Positions 1 through 42,414 of a stretch of DNA of 64,000 bases are shown here, one piece after another (within the stretch, counting starts at the first letter, position 1; each line of letters opens with the position of its first letter). Source of the DNA: Marinilabilia salmonicolor JCM 21150 (lineage in GTDB: Bacteria > Bacteroidota > Bacteroidia > Bacteroidales > Marinilabiliaceae). Location of the stretch: positions 62,001-126,000 of the forward strand of contig NZ_AJKI01000002.1 in NCBI RefSeq assembly GCF_000259075.1, read 5' to 3'. The notes beneath the pieces are model-generated. The model saw nothing but the letters and a program-made list of their open reading frames with translations. It had not been told where the DNA came from and ran no database searches. A program made the translations under genes and the position numbers.

Positions 1-63
1 CAGCCTCACAGGGCAATTTCTCACTAAATTGCAAGAAAAATTCATTTTTTTGTTACAAAATGC

Positions 64-93
64 TTGATGGTATTGTCAAAATATATACATTTG
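64..93 (+). promoter_or_regulatory. Candidate ilv operon promoter
   Basis: TTG at 64-66, a 19-bp spacer and TACATTTG at 86-93 match the known Bacteroidetes primary-sigma pattern (TTG near -33, TAnnTTTG near -7). Transcription would begin near 98-101, about 23 nt before the leader peptide ATG at 123. That is the expected layout for an attenuated operon. The assignment is motif-based; no start site has been measured. Confidence 0.6.
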
Positions 94-122
94 CAAAGAA
101 CAAATGAATTTGAACTTTGGAT

Positions 123-203
123 ATGAACCTTTTTCTATCACTCATTCTCGTCAATATTATTATTCTCGTGGGACAACCAGGCAGAAGTGAGAATGGTGTA
201 TAG
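123..203 (+). CDS. Leader peptide of ilv/leu operon (attenuator)
   Basis: A 26-codon ORF starts ATG AAC CTT and ends TAG at 201-203. Eleven of its residues are Leu, Ile or Val: L3, L5, L7, I8, L9, V10, I12, I13, I14, L15, V16. It lies between a candidate promoter and a U-tailed terminator hairpin directly upstream of ilvD, and its 3' part (181-192) is one arm of the antiterminator. Ribosome stalling at codons about 7-15, when charged branched-chain tRNAs are scarce, would leave 181-192 free; a ribosome reaching the stop codon would mask it. Such peptides have no function of their own. It is too short for usual gene callers. Confidence 0.85.
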   Translation: MNLFLSLILVNIIILVGQPGRSENGV

Positions 204-259
204 CTAAATAAAGCAACCGATTTTTAAACCCCTCTCACTTCTGCGTGAGAGGGGTTTTT
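139..259 (+). promoter_or_regulatory. Branched-chain amino acid transcription attenuator (RNA segments 1-4)
   Basis: Three competing pairings can be read directly. 1:2 pause hairpin: CAC(139-141)+CATTCTC(143-149) with GAGAATGGTG(189-198), one bulged base. 2:3 antiterminator: GCAGAAGTGAGA(181-192) with TCTCACTTCTGC(233-244), 12 bp perfect. 3:4 terminator: 226-238 with 245-257, followed by a U-run. Segments 2 and 3 are shared, so the pairings exclude one another. This is the classical enterobacterial ilv/leu/trp layout. Regulation is inferred from sequence only. Confidence 0.85.
226..259 (+). terminator. Attenuator terminator upstream of ilvD
   Basis: AAACCCCTCTCAC (226-238), loop TTCTGC (239-244) and GTGAGAGGGGTTT (245-257) form a perfect 13-bp stem running into a T-tract (255-259). 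It stands 31 nt before the ilvD ATG and downstream of the leader peptide stop, so its role is to stop transcription before the structural genes rather than to end an upstream gene. Confidence 0.9.
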
Positions 260-290
260 AATTTATACAGAAGATTACAGTTTAATTATT

Positions 291-2117
291 ATGAAGCGAC
301 CATTAAGAAGTAATACGACCACACAGGGCCGAAAAATGGCAGGAGCCAGAAGCCTCTGGCGTGCAAACGGAATGAAAGACGAACAAATGGGCAAACCGTT
401 GGTAGCCATTGTCAACTCCTTCACTCAATTTGTTCCGGGGCACGTTCATTTGCATCATATCGGCCAGGAGATAAAACAAATTGTGGAAAAACAAGGTTGC
501 TTTGCTGCCGAATTCAACACCATTGCGGTGGACGACGGTATTGCTATGGGACACGACGGAATGCTGTATTCCCTTCCATCACGCGACCTCATCGCTGACA
601 GTGTAGAATATATGGTAAATGCACACCGCGCCGATGCCATGATTTGCATCAGCAACTGTGACAAAATAACTCCCGGTATGCTCATCGCTTCCATGCGACT
701 GAACATCCCCACCATATTTGTTTCCGGAGGCCCAATGGAAGCCGGGAACAACAATGGAACGGCCCTTGACCTTATTGACGCTATGGTAATGGCTGCCGAT
801 GACAATGTTTCGGATAGCGATGTGCTGGCAGTTGAACAAAATGCCTGTCCCACCTGCGGTTCCTGCAGCGGAATGTTTACCGCCAACTCCATGAACTGCC
901 TCAATGAGGCTCTTGGTCTGGCCCTTCCAGGAAACGGAACCATCGTAGCCACACATGCCAATCGCAAAAAGTTATTTGAAGAGGCCGCCAATAAAATTGT
1001 AGATCTCGCCTATCGCCATTACCGGGACGGGGACGACTCAGTGTTACCCAGATCCATTGCTACAAAACAGGCTTTTATGAATGCAATGACCCTTGACATT
1101 GCCATGGGAGGATCCACCAATACAGTGCTCCACCTGCTGGCAATTGCCCATGAGGCAGGTGTGGATTTTACCATGCAGGATATAGATCAACTGTCAAGAC
1201 ATACACCGGTACTCTCAAAAGTTGCCCCAAACAGTCATTATCATATACAGGATGTGAACCGTGCGGGGGGTATTTTAGGGATACTGGCAGAATTGGCCCG
1301 TCACAATCTTTTGGATACATCGGTTCACCGGATAGATTATCCATCACTGGCTGATGCACTCAATGACTTTGATTTGCTCAGTAAAGAAGTTACCGATAAA
1401 GCCAGGGAAAAGTACAAGAGTGCGCCCGGAGGATTCCGGAACCTGGTACTGGGGTCACAAAATGCCGTTTATGAAGAATTTGATCTGGACCGCAAAAATG
1501 GATGCATCCGGAGTGTGGAAAACGCTTACTCTAAGGATGGTGGTCTGGCGGTGCTTTTTGGCAATATTGCATCCAAAGGGTGCATTGTAAAGACAGCAGG
1601 AGTTGATGAATCCATTCTTCATTTCGAAGGAACTGCCAAAGTCTATGAATCTCAGGACAGTGCCTGTGATGCCATCCTCGAGGGTGATGTAAAATCAGGC
1701 GATGTGGTGTTAATAAAATATGAAGGCCCAAAAGGAGGCCCGGGAATGCAGGAGATGCTTTACCCCACCTCTTACATTAAATCGCGCCACCTGGGTAAAG
1801 AGTGTGCTCTGGTTACCGACGGCCGTTTCTCAGGAGGTACCTCAGGCCTTTCAATAGGGCATGTATCACCCGAAGCTGCTGCCGGCGGAGAAATAGCGCT
1901 GGTAGAAACTGGCGACAAAATTGTCATCGACATACCGGGCAGAAGCATAAATGTAGAAATATCAGAAGCAGAAATGGAAAAACGCAGGCATAAAGAGATG
2001 GCCAAAGGAGAACAGGCTTTCAAGCCCGGCCCCAGAGAGCGACAGGTTTCCAAAGCCCTCAAAGCCTATGCGTCAATGGTATCATCAGCAGATAAAGGAG
2101 CAGTCAGAATAATATAA
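291..2117 (+). CDS. ilvD: Dihydroxy-acid dehydratase
   Basis: Cytoplasmic Fe-S enzyme that dehydrates 2,3-dihydroxyisovalerate and 2,3-dihydroxy-3-methylvalerate to the keto acids preceding valine and isoleucine. The IlvD/Edd family signatures are clear: Cys123 in CDKITPGM and the cysteines at about 186, 189 and 192 in [11 protein letters not shown], followed by [19 protein letters not shown]. Near the C-terminus, [21 protein letters not shown] is the substrate-site region. The 608 residues are a normal length for the long form. The ATG at 291 is 31 nt past the attenuator terminator. First gene of the ilvDBNC-leuACD-leuB cluster. Confidence 0.97.
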
Positions 2118-2251
2118 GGGAGTCGTGAAAGTCAGTCGGTAGCCTGAATTTGTTAAATTTCTTGACAACCGGTAAATTCTGACATAATCTTGTACCCCCA
2201 ATAAAATATGGAGAGCAGGTTTTTTTAATTTAATTTTTCTCAAACGCAACC

Positions 2252-3997
2252 ATGAATGTTATGGAACCACAATCTCAATTACTAATGAAAGAAGAAAAAA
2301 CCAGGGAGACAAAAAGGATGAGCGGATCCGAGGCTGTAATGCAGTCATTGATCAATGAAGGAACAACTATGATCTTCGGATACCCGGGGGGGGCTATCAT
2401 GCCTATTTATGATGCTCTTTATAATTATCACGATCAGGTTCATCACGTCCTCACCCGCCATGAACAGGGTGCCGTCCATGCGGCTCAGGGATATGCCCGT
2501 GTTACGGGAAAAGTTGGAGTTTGCTTTGCAACCTCCGGACCCGGAGCAACCAACACAGTAACAGGACTGGCAGATGCCATGATGGATTCAACTCCGCTGG
2601 TAGTCATAACCGGGCAGGTAATTTCATCACTTCTGGGAACCGATGCTTTTCAGGAAACCGATGTAGTAGGTGTAACCCAGCCGGTAACCAAATGGAACTA
2701 CCAGGTTCGGAAAGCAGAGGACATTCCGGCAGCACTTGCCAGAGCATTCTATATTGCCCGGTCGGGGCGACCGGGACCTGTAGTGGTTGACATAACCAAA
2801 GATGCCCAGGTGAATGAAATGGACTTCAAATATGAGCCGGTAAAAGCCATCCGGAGTTACTCTCCCGAAAGCCCCATCGACTTTCATCAAATCGAAGAAG
2901 CGGCGAAATTGATCAACCTCTCCCGTAAGCCTCTGGCTTTGGTCGGTCAGGGCGTTGTCTTGGGAAATGCCGAAAAAGAATTGCTCGAATTCCTTGAAAA
3001 ATCAGGTATTCCGGCTGCATGGACCCTACTGGGTCTTTCCGCCATGCCTTCTGACCATCTGCTGAATGTGGGGATGCTGGGAATGCACGGAAACTATGGC
3101 CCCAACATCAAAACCAATGAGGCAGACCTTATTATTGCCATCGGAATGCGTTTTGATGACCGTGTAACAGGCGACCTGACAAAATATGCCACCAATGCCA
3201 GGGTTATTCACATGGAAATAGACCCTGCTGAAATCAACAAAAACGTTCATGCAGATGTTCCTCTGTTGGGAAATGTAAAGAAAACACTCCCCCTGCTCAC
3301 AGGTAAAATCACCAAAAATGAACACACCGACTGGGTGGCAGAATTTGAAGCCTGTTTCAGAATTGAATATAAACGAATTATCGAAAAGGAAACAGCTCCC
3401 GATGACAAAGGTCTGAGAATGGGCGAGGTAATCTCTAAAGTTTCTTCAGCTTTCAATGATGATGCTGTAATGGTTACAGATGTAGGACAACATCAAATGA
3501 TGGGCGCCCGCTACTTCCGGTTTAAACAAAGCAGAAGTGTGGTTACCTCCGGAGGATTAGGCACAATGGGCTTTGGACTTCCGGCTGCAATGGGAGCCAA
3601 ACTGGGGGCTCCCGAGCGTCCGGTATGTGTCTTCGTTGGTGATGGCGGTTTTCAGATGACCATCCAGGAACTGGGAACAATTTTTCAAACAAATATTCCT
3701 GTGAAGATTGTTTTGCTGAACAACAACTTTCTGGGAATGGTTCGTCAGTGGCAGGAACTCTTTTTCGATAAGAGATATGCTTCCACCGAGTTGATCAACC
3801 CTGATTTTCAGACCATAGCCAAAGGATACCACGTGCCCGCCATAAAAGTTACAGAGCGCGAAAATCTGGATGACGCCATCAAACAAATGGCCGAAACAGA
3901 GGGCCCTTTCCTGATGGAAGTTTTGGTTGAAAAAGAAGGAAATGTATTCCCGATGGTTCCGGCAGGTGCATCAGTATCTGACATCCGCCTGGAGTAA
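2252..3997 (+). CDS. ilvB: Acetolactate synthase, large (catalytic) subunit
   Basis: Thiamine-diphosphate and FAD enzyme that condenses pyruvate with pyruvate or 2-oxobutyrate, the first common step to valine, leucine and isoleucine. The N-terminal TPP-binding region has FGYPGGAIMPIYDAL and the catalytic glutamate in TRHEQGAVHAAQGYAR. The C-terminal TPP motif runs from GDGGFQMT (about residue 464) to LLNNNFLG (about 489). The 581 residues are usual. About 27 N-terminal residues precede the conserved start (SGSEAVMQSL), and internal ATGs could serve instead. 134 bp separate it from ilvD; a hairpin separates it from ilvN. Confidence 0.96.
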   Translation: MNVMEPQSQLLMKEEKTRETKRMSGSEAVMQSLINEGTTMIFGYPGGAIMPIYDALYNYHDQVHHVLTRHEQGAVHAAQGYARVTGKVGVCFATSGPGATNTVTGLADAMMDSTPLVVITGQVISSLLGTDAFQETDVVGVTQPVTKWNYQVRKAEDIPAALARAFYIARSGRPGPVVVDITKDAQVNEMDFKYEPVKAIRSYSPESPIDFHQIEEAAKLINLSRKPLALVGQGVVLGNAEKELLEFLEKSGIPAAWTLLGLSAMPSDHLLNVGMLGMHGNYGPNIKTNEADLIIAIGMRFDDRVTGDLTKYATNARVIHMEIDPAEINKNVHADVPLLGNVKKTLPLLTGKITKNEHTDWVAEFEACFRIEYKRIIEKETAPDDKGLRMGEVISKVSSAFNDDAVMVTDVGQHQMMGARYFRFKQSRSVVTSGGLGTMGFGLPAAMGAKLGAPERPVCVFVGDGGFQMTIQELGTIFQTNIPVKIVLLNNNFLGMVRQWQELFFDKRYASTELINPDFQTIAKGYHVPAIKVTERENLDDAIKQMAETEGPFLMEVLVEKEGNVFPMVPAGASVSDIRLE

Positions 3998-4003
3998 AAA
4001 AAC

Positions 4004-4044
4004 AAGGGAACACTGGGGAAGCCTAATCAGAAGTTCCCTTTTTG
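4004..4044 (+). terminator. Terminator-like hairpin between ilvB and ilvN
   Basis: AAGGGAAC (4004-4011) pairs with GTTCCCTT (4033-4040), an 8-bp stem with a 21-nt loop, followed by TTTGTTTG. It sits in the 80-bp gap between two subunits of one enzyme, where full termination would be harmful. It could be a partial terminator or a 3' stabiliser that sets the subunit ratio. Strength is uncertain. Confidence 0.5.
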
Positions 4045-4077
4045 TTTGTGGAAAAACCAACATAAAAGATCAAGAAA

Positions 4078-4632
4078 ATGAAGACACCAGATAAAGAAGA
4101 GTTTACACTCTCTGTATATTCCGAAAACCATGTGGGACTGCTCAATCAGATTACGACAGTTTTTACCCGCAGGCATATCAATATCGAAAGCTTAACCACT
4201 TCCGAGTCGGCCATCACCGGCATCCACAAATTCACCATTGTGGTATTTGCTACTGCCGATAACATTGAGAAACTGGCCAAACAAATTGAAAAGCGCATTG
4301 ACGTATTAAAAGTGTTTGTATTCAGAGCGGATGAGATTATCCATCAGGAGATAGCGCTTTACAAGGTATCAACCAGTTCGCTGCTCGGTGGCAATGAAAT
4401 AGAAAAGCTGGTTCGTCAATACGGAGCACGAATTTTGGAAATCACACCGGAATATACCGTTATTGAAAAAACCGGACACAAGGAAGAAACCCAGGAGTTG
4501 TTTGAAAAGCTTGACCCTTACGGAGTTTCGCAATTTGTCCGGTCCGGACGAATCGCAATCACCAAAACCAAAAAAGAACTTTTGGAGAATTATCTTAAGA
4601 AACTGGAAACAGATCAAACTCAATTAAACTAA
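4078..4632 (+). CDS. ilvN: Acetolactate synthase, small (regulatory) subunit
   Basis: Regulatory partner of IlvB that in this family activates the catalytic subunit and confers feedback control by valine or other branched-chain amino acids. Residues about 8-80 form an ACT domain (TLSVYSENHVGLLNQITTVF, then RRHINIESLTTSES). The remainder is the ALS small-subunit C-terminal domain. The 184 residues fit the IlvN/IlvH class. It lies between ilvB and ilvC in the same orientation, 23 bp upstream of ilvC. Confidence 0.94.
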   Translation: MKTPDKEEFTLSVYSENHVGLLNQITTVFTRRHINIESLTTSESAITGIHKFTIVVFATADNIEKLAKQIEKRIDVLKVFVFRADEIIHQEIALYKVSTSSLLGGNEIEKLVRQYGARILEITPEYTVIEKTGHKEETQELFEKLDPYGVSQFVRSGRIAITKTKKELLENYLKKLETDQTQLN

Positions 4633-4655
4633 TAACAGTTAACAACAGATTAATC

Positions 4656-5708
4656 ATGGCAAAAATTAACTTTGGAGGAACCGAAGAAAATGTGGTAACC
4701 CGCGAAGAGTTCCCATTGGCAAAAGCACAGGAAGTATTGAAAGACGAAACCATTGCCGTTATCGGTTATGGCGTACAGGGACCCGGACAGGCCCTCAATC
4801 TCAAGGACAATGGCTTTAACGTTATTATTGGCCAGCGCAAAGACTCAAAAACATGGGACAAAGCCGTTGCTGATGGCTGGGAGCCAGGAAAAACGCTGTT
4901 CCCTATTGAGGAAGCTCTCGACAAAGGAACCATCATTCAGTATCTTCTTTCTGATGCCGGACAGATTGCTGTATGGCCTACCGTAGAGAAGTATCTGAAA
5001 CCCGGTAAGGCGCTTTATTTCTCACACGGATTTGGCGTGACTTACAAAGAGCGTACAGGTATTATACCTCCCAAAGATGTTGACGTGATTCTGGTTGCCC
5101 CAAAAGGTTCAGGCACCAGTCTTCGTCGTATGTTCCTTGAAGGACGAGGACTGAACTCCAGCTACGCAATCTTCCAGGACGCCACAGGCAAAGCATTTGA
5201 TCGCGTGGTGGCCCTGGGTATTGGCGTAGGTAGTGGATATCTTTTCGAAACCACTTTCCAGAAGGAAGTTTACAGTGACCTCACAGGAGAACGGGGTACA
5301 CTGATGGGAGCCATCCAGGGAATTTTTGCAGCTCAGTACGAAGTATTGCGTTCTAATGGACACTCTCCCTCAGAAGCCTTTAACGAAACTGTTGAGGAGC
5401 TGACTCAGAGTTTGATGCCGCTGGTTGCTGAGAACGGGATGGATTGGATGTATGCCAACTGTTCCACCACAGCCCAAAGAGGGGCACTCGATTGGTGGAA
5501 GAAATTCCGCGATGCTTCCATGCCTGTATTCAAAGAACTTTACAGCGAGGTGGCAAAAGGAAACGAGGCTCAACGTTCCATCGATGCCAACAGCCAAAGC
5601 GACTATCGGGTAAAACTTGAGGAAGAACTTAAAGAGCTGCGTGAGTCTGAAATGTGGAATGCAGGGGCTGCAGTTCGTCAGCTTCGTCCTGAAAATCAGA
5701 AAAAATAG
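4656..5708 (+). CDS. ilvC: Ketol-acid reductoisomerase
   Basis: NAD(P)H- and Mg-dependent enzyme that isomerises and reduces acetolactate or acetohydroxybutyrate to the dihydroxy acids used by IlvD. The Rossmann motif is AVIGYGVQGPGQA (from about residue 33). GQRKDSKTW follows beta-2; its Arg and Ser are the kind of residues that favour NADPH. The knotted helical domain has metal and substrate glutamates in KEVYSDLTGERG and SEAFNETVEELTQSL. The 350 residues are near class I length with the Bacteroidetes-style C-terminus. The next gene, leuA, starts 152 bp on, after a strong hairpin. Confidence 0.96.
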   Translation: MAKINFGGTEENVVTREEFPLAKAQEVLKDETIAVIGYGVQGPGQALNLKDNGFNVIIGQRKDSKTWDKAVADGWEPGKTLFPIEEALDKGTIIQYLLSDAGQIAVWPTVEKYLKPGKALYFSHGFGVTYKERTGIIPPKDVDVILVAPKGSGTSLRRMFLEGRGLNSSYAIFQDATGKAFDRVVALGIGVGSGYLFETTFQKEVYSDLTGERGTLMGAIQGIFAAQYEVLRSNGHSPSEAFNETVEELTQSLMPLVAENGMDWMYANCSTTAQRGALDWWKKFRDASMPVFKELYSEVAKGNEAQRSIDANSQSDYRVKLEEELKELRESEMWNAGAAVRQLRPENQKK

Positions 5709-5779
5709 TGCAACAAATGTACGAATGAACCCAATCCCGGGTTTATTCACCATTGCTGCCAACTCAACATTAATCATTT

Positions 5780-5819
5780 ATGGTTCCGGAAGCCGGAGAA
5801 GCCGGTTTTCGGAACCATT
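5780..5819 (+). other. Strong stem-loop between ilvC and leuA
   Basis: ATGGTTCCG (5780-5788) and CGGAACCAT (5811-5819) are perfect 9-bp arms. Inside them, AAGCCGG and CCGGTT add a second stem capped by AGAAG. No T-run follows, so this is not a standard intrinsic terminator. A processing or mRNA-stability site between the ilv and leu halves is plausible. Coordinates are approximate by a base or two. Confidence 0.55.
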
Positions 5820-5860
5820 CATAAACCGGGAAATCACCGGACTGAAAAAAACAATCAACC

Positions 5861-7357
5861 ATGAGCAATAAAGTCTATATTTTCGACACCACATTGCGGG
5901 ATGGCGAACAGGTCCCGGGTTGCCAGTTGAATACCATCGAGAAAATCGAAGTGGCCAAGCAACTGGAAAAACTCGGCGTGGACATTATCGAAGCCGGATT
6001 TCCGGTCTCCAGTCCGGGAGACTTCAACTCCGTCGTAGAAATATCCAAAGCCGTCAGCAATCCAACCATTTGTGCTTTGACCCGCGCAGTGAAAAAGGAC
6101 ATTGAAGTGGCTGCCGATGCACTGAAATTCGCCAAAAAAGGACGAATCCATACAGGTATTGGAACCTCTTTTTATCATATCAACTACAAACTAAAATCCA
6201 ATCCTGAAGAAATTATAAAACGAGCGGTTGAGGCAGTTAAATATGCCAGAAACTTCATTGATGATGTGGAGTTTTATGCCGAAGATGCCGGTCGTACCGA
6301 CAACGAGTATCTGGCCCGCGTGGTGGAAGCTGTAATTGCAGCAGGAGCTACAGTGGTCAACATTCCGGATACAACCGGATACTGTCTTCCACATGAATAC
6401 GGTGAAAAAATTGCCTTTCTGATGAACAACGTACCCAATGTGGACAAAGCCATCCTTTCCACGCATTGCCACAACGACCTGGGAATGGCAACCGCCAATT
6501 CTATGTCCGGGATTCTTAACGGGGCGCGTCAGGTAGAAGTAACCATTAACGGAATAGGTGAAAGGGCCGGAAACACCTCTCTTGAAGAAGTGGCCATGGC
6601 CATAAAAAGTCATAAAGATTTAGATCTGGAGACGGGCATCAACAGCAAAGAAATTATCAAAAGCAGTCGTCTGGTTTCCACCCTCATGCGTATGCCTGTG
6701 CAGCCCAACAAGGCGATTGTAGGCCGCAATGCTTTTGCGCATTCATCCGGAATACATCAGGATGGTGTACTGAAAAACCGGGAAAACTATGAAATTATTG
6801 ACCCTGCAGAAGTGGGCGTCAAAGAGTCATCCATTGTGCTGACCGCCCGCAGCGGCCGCGCTGCACTTAAACATCGTCTTCAGGTACTGGGATATGACTT
6901 TGAACCCACAGAACTCGACGAAGTTTATCAGAGGTTTCTGGAACTTGCCGACAAGAAAAAAGACATCACAGATGAAGATCTGCAGATCCTTGCAGGACGC
7001 GAACAGGACAAATCCAACAAGCCGTTGCAGCTGGAACTGCTTCAGGTTGTTTGTGGAAAATCAACAGTCCCCACAGCCACCGTCCGCATCAACTTCAACG
7101 GTGATGTATTTACAGAAACGGCAGCCGGAAACGGACCTATCGATGCAGCATTTACCGCGGTTAAAGCACTGATTAAAAGAAGAGTTCGCCTGGAAGAGTT
7201 CCTGATTCAGGCCATTACCCGCGGAAGCGACGATTTGGGTAAAGTACACGTTCAGGTAGAGCACAAAGGTCAAACCTATTACGGATTTGCAGCTCATACC
7301 GACATCATAACAGCATCGGTGGAAGCGTTCCTGGATGCCGTCGGAAAAATTGCCTGA
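5861..7357 (+). CDS. leuA: 2-isopropylmalate synthase
   Basis: Commits 2-oxoisovalerate to leucine by condensation with acetyl-CoA. The N-terminal TIM barrel begins with the signature [15 protein letters not shown]. The metal ligands are in [15 protein letters not shown] and the second family signature is [20 protein letters not shown]. From about residue 390 there is a LeuA C-terminal regulatory domain ([20 protein letters not shown]), which binds leucine for feedback inhibition in characterised members. At 498 residues it is the long, regulated form. A second paralogue lies at 9690-11234. Confidence 0.95.
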
Positions 7358-7361
7358 TTTA

Positions 7362-7524
7362 AGAAACTGTTTAAGTTTTATCCTTTGGAATGTTTTCGAA
7401 TCTTGAACGCTTATACGTCGTCAAAATTCCCTTAAATAGCGCTGCTATTCTCGTCAATTTTGACTTGTCTAAAGAGCTCAATCCGTTAAAAGCACCTACC
7501 AAAAACAAAATTTAAACAGTTTCT
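7362..7524. repeat. 163-bp palindromic element in leuA-leuC gap (MITE candidate)
   Basis: Terminal inverted repeats of 18 nt (7362-7379 AGAAACTGTTTAAGTTTT; 7507-7524 its complement with one G.U-type mismatch) bound a sequence with no coding potential. It holds an internal pair TCAAAATT/AATTTTGA around an AGCGCT palindrome. It fills almost the whole 206-bp gap inside an otherwise tight operon. No clear target-site duplication is visible. A non-autonomous mobile element or a structured intercistronic RNA are both possible. Confidence 0.5.
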
Positions 7525-7563
7525 AAGATTAAATGATTTTGTAACCATTAAAACAATAATACC

Positions 7564-8964
7564 TTGGCAGGAAAAACATTATTCGAAAAGATATGGGACA
7601 AGCACGTGGTAACCAAAGTTGATGGTGGCCCCAGTGTTTTATACATCGACCGTCATTTTGTACATGAAGTGACCAGTCCCCAGGCCTTTGCAGGCCTCAG
7701 AGACCGTGGCATACAGGTAAGAAGACCTGAAAAAACAGTTGCAACGGCAGACCACAACATTCCTACGTTAAACCAGGACCAACCCATCCAGGATGAGCTC
7801 AGCCGATTCCAGGTAAATAAACTGGCGCTGAACTGTGAAGAGTTTGGGGTGCCTCTTTACGGGCTGAACCACAAATGGAACGGAATTGTCCATGTAATAG
7901 GACCCGAATTGGGAATTACCAAACCCGAAATGACCATCGTATGCGGAGACAGTCACACCTCCACCCACGGAGCTTTTGGAAGCATCGCATTCGGTATCGG
8001 AACCAGCGAAGTTGAGATGACACTGGCGACTCAGACTTTGCTCCAGAACAAACCCAAAACCATGCGGATAAACATCGATGGAGAATTGGGTAAAGGAGTG
8101 GTATCCAAAGATATTGTACTCTACATCATCTCTCTGATTGGCACAGGTGGTGCCACTGGATATTTTGTGGAATTCGCAGGTTCGGCAATCCGCAACCTCT
8201 CCATGGAAGCAAGGATGACCATCTGTAACATGAGTATCGAGATGGGCGCCCGCGGAGGCATGATTGCTCCTGACGAAACCACTTTTGAATATGTAAAAGG
8301 TCGAGAGTTTGCCCCCAAAGGTGCAGAGTGGGACAAAGCAGTTGAAGAGTGGCGCCAGCTGCCCTCTGACACAGATGCAGAGTTCGACAAGGAACTTACG
8401 TACAAAGCATCAGATATTGAGCCCATGATTACTTATGGTACCAACCCGGGAATGGGCATCGGCATCAGTAAGTCAATTCCGACCCTCGAAGAAATTGAAA
8501 AATCGACCCAGGCCACTTTCAAAAAATCCATGCAATACATGGACTTCCAACCAGGCGACGCCATGATTGGTAAAAAAGTGGACTATGTTTTCATCGGTAG
8601 CTGTACCAATGGTCGGATAGAAGACCTTCGTGCTTTTGCAGCTTTCGTTAAAGGAAAGAAAAAAGCGGATAATGTTACTGCATGGATTGTGCCCGGTAGT
8701 CACCAGGTGGAAGCTCAAGCCGAGGAAGAAGGTATCCGTCAGATTTTGGAAGAATCCGGATTTGAAATGCGTCAGCCCGGTTGTTCAGCCTGTCTGGCCA
8801 TGAACGATGACAAGATTCCGGAAGGAAACTACGCTGTTTCCACATCGAACCGGAACTTTGAAGGTCGTCAGGGCCCCGGAGCCCGTACCATGCTTGCCAG
8901 TCCGCTGACAGCTGCAGCCACCGCTATTACAGGAAAGATAACCGATCCCCGTGATTTTTTGTAA
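7564..8964 (+). CDS. leuC: 3-isopropylmalate dehydratase, large subunit
   Basis: With LeuD it isomerises 2-isopropylmalate to 3-isopropylmalate, and in the pyruvate route citramalate to erythro-methylmalate. Aconitase-family [4Fe-4S] ligands are Cys347 (GSCTNGR) and Cys407/Cys410 (PGCSACLAM), the spacing expected of a 466-residue Leu[14 protein letters not shown] is the aconitase signature near residue 130. The start is TTG at 7564 ([14 protein letters not shown]); no in-frame ATG lies upstream. Confidence 0.96.
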
Positions 8965-9027
8965 TTACAAGAAACACTGGAACAGATCTGATGTAATTGA
9001 TTGATAACATTTTTAAGAGAACAAATT

Positions 9028-9621
9028 ATGCCAATAGATAAATTTGTAAAACTGGAATCGACTTGTGTTCCTGTACCCATCGAAAACGTGGATACGGACC
9101 AAATTATACCTGCCCGATTCCTGAAAGCCACGACCCGCGACGGATTCGGCGACAATCTGTTTGCCGACTGGCGGTATGATAAGTCCGGTAATCCCAAAGA
9201 GGATTTCGTACTGAACGATCCTACCTACTCGGGCAAAATACTCGTGGCCAGCCAGAACTTTGGTAGCGGATCCAGTCGCGAACACGCTGCATGGGCTATT
9301 GCAGGCTATGGTTTTAAAGCTGTTGTTTCAAGCTTTTTTGCCGACATCTTTAAAAACAACTCGCTCAACAACGGATTGCTGCCGGTTCAGGTTTCGAAAG
9401 AATTTCTGGAAGAGTTGTTTCAGGCTATTGAAAAAGACCCTGCAACGAAAGTGGAAATTGATCTGGAGAACCAGAAAATTACCCTTCAGCCAAACGGCTC
9501 CAGTGAGTCATTTGAAATCAATCCTTATAAAAAGAAATGTATGCTCAATGGCTTCGATGACATTGATTACCTGCTAAACATCAGCAATGAAATCGCAACC
9601 TGGGAAAAAGCAAACAGCTAA
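9028..9621 (+). CDS. leuD: 3-isopropylmalate dehydratase, small subunit
   Basis: The swivel-domain subunit that completes the LeuCD active site. The conserved [15 protein letters not shown] near residue 20 and the active-site loop [13 protein letters not shown] are both present. ATG at 9028 is chosen over the in-frame TTG at 9001 because homologues begin close to PIDKF-like sequence; this gives 197 residues, typical for LeuD. It lies 63 bp after leuC and is followed by a hairpin before the next gene. Confidence 0.95.
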
Positions 9622-9641
9622 AAAGTAAGAATACAAACCTT

Positions 9642-9673
9642 CCCCAACCATTGATTTTTTTCGGTGGTTGGGG
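9642..9673 (+). other. Perfect 9-bp stem-loop after leuD
   Basis: CCCCAACCA (9642-9650) and TGGTTGGGG (9665-9673) are exact complements. The T-rich run lies in the loop (9651-9664) rather than after the stem, so this is not a canonical terminator. It overlaps the TTG at 9651 and supports choosing the downstream ATG at 9690 as the start of the next gene. Confidence 0.6.
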
Positions 9674-9689
9674 TTACCAACAAAAGCCG

Positions 9690-11234
9690 ATGAGAACCAT
9701 AGAAGTGATGGATACCACCCTCAGGGATGGGGAGCAAACAACGGGGGTGTCATTCAACGATGCTGAGAAACTGGCCATTGCCAGATTGTTGCTGGAGGAG
9801 GTAAAGGTTGACCGCATTGAAGTTGCCTCTGCCAGGGTTTCCGACGGTGAGTTAAAGGCTGTCAAACGTCTTACCAAATGGGCTGAATCGCACAATTGCC
9901 TGGAGCGCATAGAAGTACTGGGTTTTGTGGACAACAATATTTCTCTGGCCTGGATTCAGGAAGCCGGAGGAAAAGTGTTGAATCTGCTCACCAAAGGATC
10001 CTTAAAGCACCTGACCGGGCAACTTCGAAAAACCAAAGAACAGCATCTCGAAGATATTGAAAAAGTCATTATTGAAGCTGGAAAAAGGGGAATTACTGTC
10101 AATGTGTATCTCGAGGACTGGTCCAACGGCATGTTGAATTCGCCGGAATATGTGGAGTATATGGTCAATGGTTTGTCCAGAACCAGTGTTGGCCGGATCA
10201 TGTTGCCCGATACCCTGGGAATTCTTAATCCCGACCAGACTTATGCATTTTGTAAGTCCATGACCGACAAATTTCCGGATGTTCATTTCGACTACCACTC
10301 CCATAACGACTACGATCTGGCTGTGGCAAATGTCTATTACGCAATCAAAGCAGGCGTAAAGGGCATCCACACAACAGTTAACGGTCTGGGAGAAAGAGCT
10401 GGGAATGCACCGCTGGCAAGTATTATCGGGGTGATGAATGATCACCTGAAAGTAAAAACTCAAATTGAAGAAAGTAAACTCACGAAAATATCCTCAATGG
10501 TGGAGACGTTTTCGGGGGTACGGATTCCTGCCAACAAACCGCTTACCGGCGAGAATGTATTCACTCAATGCAGCGGTGTTCATGCAGATGGAGACAATAA
10601 AGATAATCTCTACTTCAACAACCTTCTTCCGGAACGCTTTGGACGGGTGCGTCGTTATGCGCTGGGGAAGACTTCGGGAAAAGCCAATATCAAGAAGAAT
10701 CTGGAAGATTTGGGAATTGAACTCGGTCCTGAAGACATGAAAAAGGTAACAAAACGTGTTATTGAACTGGGTGACAAAAAAGAAAATGTAACTCCGGAAG
10801 ATTTACCCTATATCATTTCCGATGTTTTGAAAACCGAACAGGTGGTAAAACGCATCAAGCTGAAAAACTACCATCTGTCTTTAGTTCAGGGGTTGAAACC
10901 GGTTGCCACCGTCAGTCTCCAGATAAACAAAGAAACCTACAACGAAACCTCGGTAGGAGACGGACAGTACGACGCATTCATGAAAGCATTGTGGCTTATT
11001 TATGAAAAACTTGGCAAAGAACACCCTGTGCTTTCTGATTATGAAGTTTCCATCCCTCCGGGAGGAAAAACAGATGCTTTGGTAGAAACCGTAATTACCT
11101 GGGAATACAAAAGCCAGGAATTTAAGACCAGAGGGTTGGATGCCGACCAGACAGAGGCGGCCATCAAGGCTACCCTCAGAATGCTCAACATCATAGAAAA
11201 TAAAGAACACGGAATGGTTATCAATGGAAAATAA
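9690..11234 (+). CDS. LeuA-like acyltransferase, probable (R)-citramalate synthase
   Basis: A second HMGL-family condensing enzyme in the same cluster: [15 protein letters not shown] at the N-terminus, metal-binding FDYHSHNDYDLAVAN and TTVNGLGERAGNAPL. A LeuA-type dimer domain closes the C-terminus (about residues 385-500). Sequence around the barrel differs clearly from the LeuA at 5861. A paralogue placed beside leuCD and leuB is best explained as citramalate synthase, which condenses pyruvate with acetyl-CoA for a threonine-independent isoleucine route using LeuCD and LeuB. Homocitrate or a second isopropylmalate synthase cannot be excluded. ATG at 9690 gives 514 residues; the upstream TTG lies in a hairpin. 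Confidence 0.75.
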   Translation: MRTIEVMDTTLRDGEQTTGVSFNDAEKLAIARLLLEEVKVDRIEVASARVSDGELKAVKRLTKWAESHNCLERIEVLGFVDNNISLAWIQEAGGKVLNLLTKGSLKHLTGQLRKTKEQHLEDIEKVIIEAGKRGITVNVYLEDWSNGMLNSPEYVEYMVNGLSRTSVGRIMLPDTLGILNPDQTYAFCKSMTDKFPDVHFDYHSHNDYDLAVANVYYAIKAGVKGIHTTVNGLGERAGNAPLASIIGVMNDHLKVKTQIEESKLTKISSMVETFSGVRIPANKPLTGENVFTQCSGVHADGDNKDNLYFNNLLPERFGRVRRYALGKTSGKANIKKNLEDLGIELGPEDMKKVTKRVIELGDKKENVTPEDLPYIISDVLKTEQVVKRIKLKNYHLSLVQGLKPVATVSLQINKETYNETSVGDGQYDAFMKALWLIYEKLGKEHPVLSDYEVSIPPGGKTDALVETVITWEYKSQEFKTRGLDADQTEAAIKATLRMLNIIENKEHGMVINGK

Positions 11235-11316
11235 CCTGCCGAAGTTACGACAGAACAAAATTCACTTTTTAATCACACCTCTCAGTCTTGGCTGAGAATG
11301 TATAACAACACACCAA

Positions 11317-12384
11317 ATGAAGTTAAACATTGCTGTATTGCCCGGAGACGGAATCGGGCCGGAAATTGTGGAACAGGCAAAAAAAGCCCTGAATGCCGTA
11401 TTTACAAAAAAAGGACATGAAGCCGTATATACCGAAGGGCTTGTTGGTGCTACGGCCATCGATAAAACCGGAAACCCTTATCCGGATGAGACACATGAAC
11501 TTTGTATGAAATCAGATGCCGTTCTGTTTGGCGCCATTGGTGACCCCAAGTACGACAATGACCCCAAGGCAAAAGTGCGCCCCGAACAGGGACTGCTTGC
11601 CATGCGTAAAAAGCTTGGTTTATATGCCAACATTCGGCCCGTAGCCACGTTTCCGTCACTGCTTCACAAATCCCCATTGCGGGCCGATTTGGTCGAAGGA
11701 GCAGATTTTGTAGCTATACGTGAGCTTACAGGCGGCATCTACTTCGGACGTCCGCAAGGTCGCTCTGAAGACGGAAAAACAGCCTACGACACCAGTGTTT
11801 ATACCACCGAGGAAATTGATCGTATTACACGACTTGCCTTCGACTTTGCCATGAAACGTCTTAAAAAACTGACAGTCGTAGATAAAGCCAATGTATTGGC
11901 GACTTCACGTCTGTGGCGCGAAACCGTTCAGGCCATTGCCCCCGATTACCCGGAAGTTGAAGTGGAGTACATGTTTGTGGACAATGCTGCCATGCAACTT
12001 ATTCAGTGGCCTAAGCGCTTCGATGTAATGGTAACCGAGAATATGTTCGGAGACATCCTCACTGATGAAGCAAGTGTTATCACCGGGTCTTTAGGACTGC
12101 TCCCCTCGGCTTCCATCGGATTGCATACTTCGGTATTTGAGCCCATACACGGATCCTACCCGCAGGCAGCAGGCAAAAACATTGCCAACCCGCTGGCAAC
12201 AATCCTTTCAGGAGCATTGATGCTCGAATCGGCATTTGACCTGAAGGAAGAAGCCCAGATGATCCGGAAAGCCGTAGATGCATCTCTGGAACAGGGAAAA
12301 GTTACCGAAGATCTGGATAAGGAAAACGCAATTTCCACTTCAGACGTAGGCGACTGGATTGCAGAATACATCAAGAAAATGTAA
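11317..12384 (+). CDS. leuB: 3-isopropylmalate dehydrogenase
   Basis: NAD-dependent oxidative decarboxylase that makes the leucine keto acid, and probably 2-oxobutyrate from methylmalate. The N-terminus has [14 protein letters not shown]. The decarboxylating-dehydrogenase signature is [19 protein letters not shown], with the Mg-binding aspartates. [19 protein letters not shown] binds the adenosine of NAD. The 355 residues are standard. A small TCTCAG/CTGAGA hairpin (11280-11297) precedes it and a strong terminator follows, closing the operon. Confidence 0.96.
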
Positions 12385-12413
12385 ATCAGAGCCCAAAAAC
12401 CAAACGCAATGAT

Positions 12414-12446
12414 AAAAACCGGTGTCGTACAGATACCGGTTTTTTT
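12414..12446 (+). terminator. Rho-independent terminator of the ilv-leu operon
   Basis: AAAAACCGGTGTC pairs with GATACCGGTTTTT around loop GTACA. The core is nine base pairs with one G.U pair, followed by a T-run (12440-12446). It lies 30 bp after leuB. Confidence 0.9.
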
Positions 12447-12469
12447 ATGTCAAAATAAAAAAATAGCTT

Positions 12470-12477
12470 TATCTTTG
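12470..12477 (+). promoter_or_regulatory. Candidate -7 element upstream of the lipoprotein gene
   Basis: TATCTTTG matches TAnnTTTG. The implied transcription start (about 12484) lies only 9 nt before the ATG at 12493, which slightly favours the second ATG at 12514 as the real start. No clear -33 element is visible. Confidence 0.4.
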
Positions 12478-12513
12478 ATTCCCTTAATTTAAATGAAGTT
12501 TACAATAGAGCCA

Positions 12514-13683
12514 ATGAGACCTTTTATCAACATTCTTTCAATAGCTTTTTTCATCCTGACGCTTTCGGGCTGTTACAGCGACAACTACCGAATAAAGGGA
12601 ACCATCGCCAACGGCAATGACCGAACTCTGGTGCTGGAAAAAATGCAACTCGACAGAGATCTGGCCATTGACAGTGTTTCCCTGGATGAGGACGGAAGCT
12701 TTTCCTTTCATGGCGAAAAATTGGCTATCCCCACTTTTTTCAAGCTCAAATTGTCAGATAATAATTTTATTACTCTTCTGTTGGATTCCACAGAACATGT
12801 AACAGTTACAGCCGATGCCAGGAATCTTGAAAATTCCTACCGGTTGGAAGGGTCCATTGAATCAAAAAAAGTACAAATACTCAATGAAAGGTTGAAAACA
12901 CTTAGAGGCAATGTGGATAGTCTTCTTGAAGTTTACGACTCATTACCTGACCAGGGAAGCACCCAACGAAAAAATGAAATTGGCCAACAGCTCCTGATTG
13001 CTTTGGATGAGCATAAAAACTTCATAGGCTCGTTTGTCATGGACAATCCCCGCTCATTTGCCAGTTATTATGCGCTTTTCCAAAGATTGAGCGACAATAC
13101 CATGGTGCTGAATGTAATGGACAAGAAAGAACAGGTCTATTTCGCCACCATTGCGACCAGCCTTAATCTCATGTATCCCGAGTCGCCAAGAGTTAAACAA
13201 CTTTACAATTATGTGCTAAGTGCCAAAGCTCAGGAACGGAGACAAAGAATCACACAGGAACTTCAGGAAAATGCTGAAGAAACCATTCCTGAAATCAAAG
13301 AAAAGAATATACATGGAGATGAAATTGCTCTATCCTCACTAAAAGGAAAAGTTGTTCTTCTGTCATTCTGGGCCTCTTGGGACGAAGCCTCACGACGTGC
13401 CAACGATCACATGAAGAAGGTATATCAACAATATAAAGATCAGGGTTTTGAGATTTATCAGGTTTCCCTTGACAGAAGTAAAATACTGTGGGAAAACGCT
13501 GTTGTCAAAGACGAATTGCCCTGGATCAACGTGAGTGATTTACGCTATACCGACTCTTTTCCTGCACGTATTTACAACATTAACCAATTGCCCGCCAACT
13601 ACCTCATCAGCAGAGAGGGTGACATCATTGGTAAAAATCTATTCGGGCACTTACTGGAGGAAAAGATTAAAGAAGCACTATAG
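12514..13683 (+). CDS. Lipoprotein with DUF4369-like and thioredoxin-fold domains, CXXC lost
   Basis: A signal peptide (RPFINILSIAFFILTLSGC) ends in a lipobox whose Cys would be lipidated. Residues about 25-110 look like the DUF4369 beta domain (YRIKGTIANGNDRTLVLEKM). The C-terminal 140 residues have the TlpA/AhpC-TSA fold (GKVVLLSFWASWDEASRR ... QGFEIYQVSLD). Where redox-active members read WCxPC, this one has WDEASRR, with no cysteine. It therefore cannot act as a standard thiol oxidoreductase and may be structural or ligand-binding. ATG at 12493 is an alternative start seven codons upstream. Monocistronic between terminator and a remnant-bearing gap. Confidence 0.8.
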   Translation: MRPFINILSIAFFILTLSGCYSDNYRIKGTIANGNDRTLVLEKMQLDRDLAIDSVSLDEDGSFSFHGEKLAIPTFFKLKLSDNNFITLLLDSTEHVTVTADARNLENSYRLEGSIESKKVQILNERLKTLRGNVDSLLEVYDSLPDQGSTQRKNEIGQQLLIALDEHKNFIGSFVMDNPRSFASYYALFQRLSDNTMVLNVMDKKEQVYFATIATSLNLMYPESPRVKQLYNYVLSAKAQERRQRITQELQENAEETIPEIKEKNIHGDEIALSSLKGKVVLLSFWASWDEASRRANDHMKKVYQQYKDQGFEIYQVSLDRSKILWENAVVKDELPWINVSDLRYTDSFPARIYNINQLPANYLISREGDIIGKNLFGHLLEEKIKEAL

Positions 13684-42332: not shown

Positions 42333-42414
42333 TGCGGACGGAGGGACTCGAACCCACACGCCTCTCGGCACTAGATCCTAAATCTAGCGCGGCTACCAAT
42401 TACGCCACGTCCGC
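42333..42414 (-). tRNA. tRNA-Leu (anticodon UAG)
   Basis: Reading the minus strand: acceptor GCGGACG/CGTCCGC with discriminator A, D-arm containing GGTAG, and anticodon stem CTAGA/TCTAG with loop TTTAGGA, so the anticodon is TAG (plus-strand 42378-42380). A class II variable arm has GCC-GAGA-GGC, and the T-loop is TTCGAGT. The T-stem has one T-T mismatch (GTGGG/CCCTC). CCA is not encoded. 82 nt. Confidence 0.95.

Follow-up and report, generated by a model that had tools for sequence, protein, structure and literature searches.

Comparative evidence for a ribosome-mediated attenuator upstream of the ilvD-leuB gene run of Marinilabilia salmonicolor and for related leaders in Bacteroidales

Introduction

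What is the role of the short, Leu/Ile/Val-rich open reading frame and the overlapping inverted repeats that lie just upstream of ilvD in Marinilabilia salmonicolor JCM 21150? The locus is at the beginning of the window, by which we mean the whole stretch of 64,000 nucleotides that was analysed (contig NZ_AJKI01000002.1, positions 62,001 to 126,000). The ilv, leu and trp operons of enterobacteria are controlled by leader-peptide attenuators, and the initial annotation of this DNA interpreted the region as an attenuator of the same kind. That interpretation draws support from the anatomy of the region, its conservation, the covariation of its helices and its promoter motif. Judged from sequence comparison, we consider that the element is most probably a classical ribosome-mediated transcription attenuator of a Leu/Ile/Val operon, and we put the probability of this reading at a little over nine in ten.

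Results

Anatomy of the region upstream of ilvD

Direct reading of the window recovered the 26-codon ORF of the initial annotation, with its 11 Leu, Ile or Val residues, as well as the three mutually exclusive pairings and the promoter-like TTG-N19 motif, each where it had been placed (Table 1). The Leu, Ile and Val codons occupy codons 3, 5, 7-10 and 12-16, so that control codons 3-16 call for all three products of the downstream operon. An overlapping ORF in another frame that starts with the ATG at 104 was rejected because this ATG is absent in genomes G003, G053, G002 and G038.

The arms of the 1:2 helix were first noted as 139-149 (CACTCATTCTC) with 189-198 (GAGAATGGTG), including one bulge, and the computed fold extends them to 135-149 with 189-203. 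When the three stretches were compared with shuffled versions of themselves, none of 200 shuffles folded as well as or better than the 3:4 stretch (z -7.9) or the 2:3 stretch (z -5.6), and 8 of 200 did so for the 1:2 stretch (z -2.4), which is moderate support. The T-run that follows the 3:4 hairpin is short (TTAATTT), and the hairpin is the first listed among 21 terminator-like sites in positions 1-12700 of the window. In 55 of 57 family loci and 47 of 56 order loci, the 110 nt before the leader start contain TAnnTTTG, which we take to be the Bacteroidota -7 element; shuffled sequences give a mean of 6.2 and a maximum of 9 for each set.

Table 1. Positions of the predicted regulatory features and downstream genes in the window
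Feature	Position	Strand	Remarks
Promoter-like TTG-N19-TACATTTG, Bacteroidota type	64-93	+	TTG 64-66, TACATTTG 86-93
Leader ORF, peptide MNLFLSLILVNIIILVGQPGRSENGV	123-203	+	26 codons; ATG 123, stop 201-203
Segment 1, within control codons	135-149	+	Partner 189-203 in the computed fold
Segment 2, in last leader codons	181-192	+	GCAGAAGTGAGA; exact reverse complement of 233-244 (12 bp)
Segment 3, antiterminator arm	233-244	+	Overlaps left arm and loop of terminator
3:4 intrinsic terminator	226-263	+	Arms 226-238 (AAACCCCTCTCAC) and 245-257, 13 bp, exact reverse complements; then T-run
ilvD, dihydroxy-acid dehydratase	291-2117	+	Protein-family search
ilvB, acetolactate synthase large subunit	2252-3997	+	Protein-family search
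ilvN, acetolactate synthase small subunit	4078-4632	+	Protein-family search
ilvC, ketol-acid reductoisomerase	4656-5708	+	Protein-family search
leuA, 2-isopropylmalate synthase	5861-7357	+	Protein-family search
leuC	7564-8964	+	Protein-family search
leuD	9001-9621	+	Protein-family search
Citramalate/isopropylmalate synthase-like gene	9651-11234	+	Best match is a CimA model, below its cut-off
leuB	11317-12384	+	Protein-family search

Eight branched-chain genes follow ilvD, one fewer than the nine genes counted in the initial annotation. The ninth downstream frame, a 396-aa ORF at 12493-13683 directly after leuB, had no NCBIfam match at E 1e-20. A single transcript is predicted for the whole run from ilvD to leuB.

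The arrangement is the one expected of an attenuator. A leader rich in the amino acids of the operon is followed by a terminator that stands between it and the first gene, a 2:3 antiterminator excludes the terminator, and a 1:2 hairpin, weaker than the other two helices, overlaps the control codons, which lie over segment 1; the stop codon coincides with segment 2 or is close to it. The exact position of the stop varies. In the clade that includes M. salmonicolor, the leader frame passes through segment 2 (tail GQPGRSENGV) and the stop lies about 10 bases past its end. In many relatives the UGA is itself within segment 2 (GUGAGAA) or just before it, and at most of the loci listed a few bases at most separate it from the start of segment 2.

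From these features we infer leader translation, ribosome stalling and a regulatory response. A ribosome would start the leader peptide at 123 while RNA polymerase moves on. With ample charged Leu-, Ile- and Val-tRNA it would reach the stop at 201-203 and cover segment 2, so that segment 3 would pair with segment 4 and transcription would end near 257-262. If any one of the three charged tRNAs were scarce, the ribosome would stall at codons 3-16 and mask segment 1, which would free segment 2 for pairing with segment 3, block the terminator and allow transcription of ilvD-ilvBNC-leuACD-(cimA-like)-leuB. Were the leader to go untranslated, 1:2 would form, followed by 3:4, and transcription would again end.

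Conservation of the leader and its codons

Comparison with seven close relatives revealed 0-1 nucleotide differences in the 81-nt leader, with nucleotides kept outside the paired arms as well, and only 28-62% identity at the fourfold sites of ilvD in the same genomes. Such a near-invariant leader next to diverged ilvD sites indicates that the RNA or the codons, beyond the peptide alone, are under selection. Pairwise comparison of the leaders of the close relatives counts 7 codon differences that are synonymous and 13 others, too small a number for testing whether the frame is coding. Codon choice was compared between 57 family leaders and the nine genes of the operon. CTG, the most used Leu codon of the operon, is avoided in the leaders (1% versus 37%), and CTC (52% versus 17%), CTA (12% versus 1%) and the Val codon GTC (40% versus 11%) are enriched there. 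This choice is as expected for the sensing of less-used codons, and constraints from pairing may contribute to it.

The gene ilvD was found in 67 of 71 family genomes, including that of the window. The upstream region of each of the 67 was read; contig ends truncate a few of these regions. For the order, 83 of 198 genomes carry the long IlvD type at E 1e-100; three belong to the family set and the other 80 supplied 81 loci. An extrapolated gene start other than ATG at 19 of these 81 loci makes the leader-gene distances there approximate. A leader ORF with at least 9 Leu/Ile/Val per 12 codons was present at 64 of 67 family loci and 54 of 81 order loci. Leader, terminator and 2:3 helix (score of at least 15 required) were all called automatically at 54 of 67 family loci and 56 of the 81 further order loci. 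Dinucleotide shuffles, three for each of the 148 family and order regions, gave this full call in 2 of 444 cases and a leader with at least 9/12 Leu/Ile/Val in 4 of 444. The peptide sequence and its tail vary across the order, and the Leu/Ile/Val content is kept.

The 13 family loci that failed the full call are of several kinds. Eight show the expected parts: at seven (G036, G004, G031, G059, G061, G062 and G063) the leader and hairpin are visible by eye and were missed by the caller, the T-run being wholly paired or the loops long or imperfect, and at G050 the architecture was parsed under a different rule. The 2:3 helix is weak at three loci (G020, G045 and G051), and at two (G054 and G057) ilvD is kept and reading of the upstream region found no leader. 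In the order set, 25 of 81 loci failed the full call. Of 80 named loci, 63 were read, and the full call was obtained in 24 of 47 titled Bacteroidota and in none of the 16 others. Among the 24 are records of Saccharicrinis, Bacteroides, Phocaeicola, Paludibacter, Odoribacter, Alistipes, Azobacteroides, Porphyromonas sp., Labilibaculum and Salinivirgaceae, and no such call was made at any of the 7 loci titled Prevotella, Prevotellaceae or Marseilla. Some of the 23 named Bacteroidota misses have less than 250 nt upstream (L071, L106 and L121). The initial annotation had looked to related ilvD upstream regions for similar leaders and compensatory changes in the arms, and most related genomes with this ilvD do keep the leader and arms with such changes, apart from the two family genomes and 25 order loci just described.

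Across the class, the long IlvD type gave matches at E 1e-100 in only 5 of 149 Bacteroidia genomes. Other orders presumably carry another IlvD type, and locus L266 has an IlvD of the short type.

Covariation of the three helices

Covariation was examined in an alignment of 54 rows, which consisted of the window and those 53 of the 81 order loci at which the caller succeeded and the leader held at least 8/12 Leu/Ile/Val. The 53 rows had been preselected for a terminator and a 2:3 score of at least 15, so the paired percentages of 3:4 (89.4% of cells) and 2:3 (78.5%) are inflated; the 1:2 helix (67.4%) lay outside the selection. Cells changed on both sides numbered 91 for 3:4, 62 for 2:3 and 58 for 1:2, compared with means of 29.4, 28.6 and 41.5 in shuffles that ignore relatedness. 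The covariation scores were 0.435 for 3:4 (slid versions at most 0.171), 0.303 for 2:3 (at most 0.178) and 0.263 for 1:2 (at most 0.143). The number of pairs with changes on each side and the number of pair types were not above shuffles for 1:2 (240 and 70 of 500 shuffles reach them) or for 2:3 (197 and 60 of 500). In an exchange test, a genome's own upstream region fitted its own segment 3 better than the regions of other genomes (mid-rank 0.88, n=56), and for 1:2 the own leader had a mid-rank of 0.74. Within single family genomes 1:2 is weak, with 10 of 54 reaching 5% versus shuffled leaders. Taken across the alignment, all three helices covary.

Discussion

Alternative explanations for the leader

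One alternative is a T-box or riboswitch, with direct binding of uncharged tRNA or an amino acid by the leader RNA; the short ORF would then be incidental. T-boxes and riboswitches share antiterminator and terminator hairpins with the element described here. No Rfam family reached its gathering score in the leader, however, and a permissive scan of positions 90-300 gave a best match of 25.3 bits versus a gathering score of 44, with Phe_leader at 15.8 versus 55. An incidental ORF also sits poorly with a Leu/Ile/Val content that is kept throughout the order despite varied peptides and codons, and we regard direct binding as extremely unlikely.

The same pattern of conservation bears on explanations in which the peptide matters for other reasons. 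The terminator may be constitutive and merely lower expression of the operon, with the peptide, which is hydrophobic and kept, having a function of its own. This would leave without a role the conserved 2:3 and 1:2 helices, which compete with each other and with the terminator, and what is kept of the peptide is its composition, whereas its sequence and tail vary and its stop is often inside segment 2; we therefore consider a constitutive terminator very unlikely. Another possibility is that the nascent chain arrests the ribosome on sensing a free amino acid, or that the leader controls downstream translation. Close relatives retain leader nucleotides beyond the paired arms, which would fit such a route, but across the order only the Leu/Ile/Val content, and not the peptide sequence, is kept, and the competing element is a terminator upstream of ilvD rather than the start of ilvD, which makes this route highly improbable as well. 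Ribosome-mediated attenuation remains our preferred reading.

Relation to known attenuators

Like the enterobacterial ilv, leu and trp attenuators, the ilvD leader combines a short ORF of control codons, 1:2, 2:3 and 3:4 helices and a terminator ahead of an operon for the same amino acids. Unlike them, it is found in another phylum, has a promoter motif of the Bacteroidota type and precedes, as one leader, a large combined ilv-leu gene run, and the likeness described here is one of architecture. A comparative survey of the attenuators of amino-acid operons by Vitreschak et al. in 2004 reportedly names Bacteroidetes/Chlorobi in its abstract.

The initial annotation regarded attenuators of this kind as less familiar outside the Proteobacteria. 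This is only partly right: earlier papers contain precedents in the Bacteroidota (PMC9723704, PMC2864571). A 2021 study of Flavobacterium psychrophilum describes "strong clues" that amino-acid operons are controlled by attenuation at an upstream leader peptide (PMC9723704), and these candidates share with the ilvD leader the phylum, the proposed mechanism and the kind of operon. Long 5' UTRs of Bacteroides thetaiotaomicron contain short ORFs reminiscent of leader peptides (PMC7366714). A 2010 table lists Bacteroid-trp (RF01692) among the probable cis-regulatory RNAs of Bacteroidetes (PMC2864571), a description that would also fit the ilvD leader; the Bacteroid-trp covariance model gave no match in the M. 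salmonicolor genome at E 0.001 and none in the window at the gathering score. The window's one Rfam match at the gathering score is a tRNA gene at 42333-42414 on the minus strand.

No description of the ilvD leader family in Bacteroidales was found in the literature searched, with most subscription papers outside reach. The ilvD leader is a well-supported example of a mechanism that is known and has precedents in Bacteroidota. Classical ribosome-dependent attenuation of branched-chain synthesis is supported by covariation for much of the Bacteroidales. If attenuation operates in these bacteria, it would require sufficiently close coupling of transcription and translation. The 26-codon leader would probably escape a gene caller, and as no Rfam family matches it at threshold, there is room for better annotation of gut and environmental Bacteroidota.

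Attenuator-like leaders elsewhere in Bacteroidia

The alignment of ilvD leaders also yielded a model with which further candidate leaders were detected. A covariance model built from 54 leaders (R1) was run on the M. salmonicolor genome and 396 class genomes, with E-values that are rough. At E 0.01, matches were obtained in 230 of the 396 class genomes, a tally that is unusable as a count of attenuators since four matches in the M. salmonicolor genome with 35-43 bits (L245, L247, L250 and L251) were read by eye as plain terminators. From 29 new class loci we read 20, the other 9 being Bacteroidales. Short ORFs rich in the matching amino acid preceded ilvE-like (10), ilvB-like (4), ilvD (2), thrA-like (2), hisG (1) and leuA (1) genes; 9 of the 20 downstream genes were checked by family search, two ilvE-like genes among them falling below the cut-offs, and the rest were named by eye.

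Leaders rich in Met and Cys before sulfite-reduction genes in the M. salmonicolor genome were an unexpected result of this search with a branched-chain model. The first (L244:1501-1637; C21:132725-132861), with the leader MMMKMTYTMMCMCHHYILQKGKYHN and 53.2 bits, precedes siroheme-synthase-like and cysJ-like genes. Leaders of this type have the peptide MMMKMTYTMMCMCHH...LQKGK, a terminator and a competing 2:3 helix (L282-L288, L317 and L318). We read 30 loci with a relative of the downstream gene; the leader, terminator and 2:3 helix occur at 7 of these, M. salmonicolor included, all 7 being close orthologues (at least 74% identity), and the leader is absent from the other 23. The second (L252:1501-1647; C11:74406-74552) has the leader MTTINSLQKSFSMCMCMPTGRHNGRLMYI (MCMCM) and precedes a nitrite/sulfite reductase-like gene, and it occurs in all three of the 71 family genomes that have this gene at E 1e-40 (L312-L314). 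At the third of these loci the automatic call gave no terminator, and a hairpin was visible on separate reading. A candidate Trp/Phe-rich leader, MNISVANIWWWRHFFFPQRD, lies with a terminator before a trpE-like gene (L248:1501-1642; C11:191570-191711). The scores of this trp leader (37.1 bits) and of the second Met/Cys leader (33.0 bits) are in the range of plain terminators, and their assignment is based on the peptides and, for the latter, also on the relatives.

A second covariance model (R2), built from ten Met/Cys leaders and run on 392 order genomes, matched 10 of the 392 at E 1e-4. These were M. salmonicolor, two genomes of another family (G782 and G825) in which Met/Cys leaders precede genes that by eye are cysJ-like and siroheme-synthase-like, and seven others whose matches, on reading, are not Met/Cys leaders. 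No paper on a Met/Cys-sensing leader specificity was found in a limited literature search. We lean slightly towards the view that the ilvD leader belongs to an old group of ribosome-sensing attenuators that spans the class Bacteroidia, with types for branched-chain amino acids, His, Thr and Trp/Phe, and that one branch of this group senses Met and Cys through the Met/Cys-rich leaders before sulfite-reduction genes.

A search for a His-codon pattern in the M. salmonicolor genome gave 71 places versus 10 for the control, a number too large for individual reading. At L269, L278 and L279, in other Bacteroidia, a His-rich leader (MKFIQLHHHHFHTCSQARS) lies before hisG and Thr/Ile-rich leaders lie before aspartate kinase/homoserine dehydrogenase-like genes (L279 by eye).
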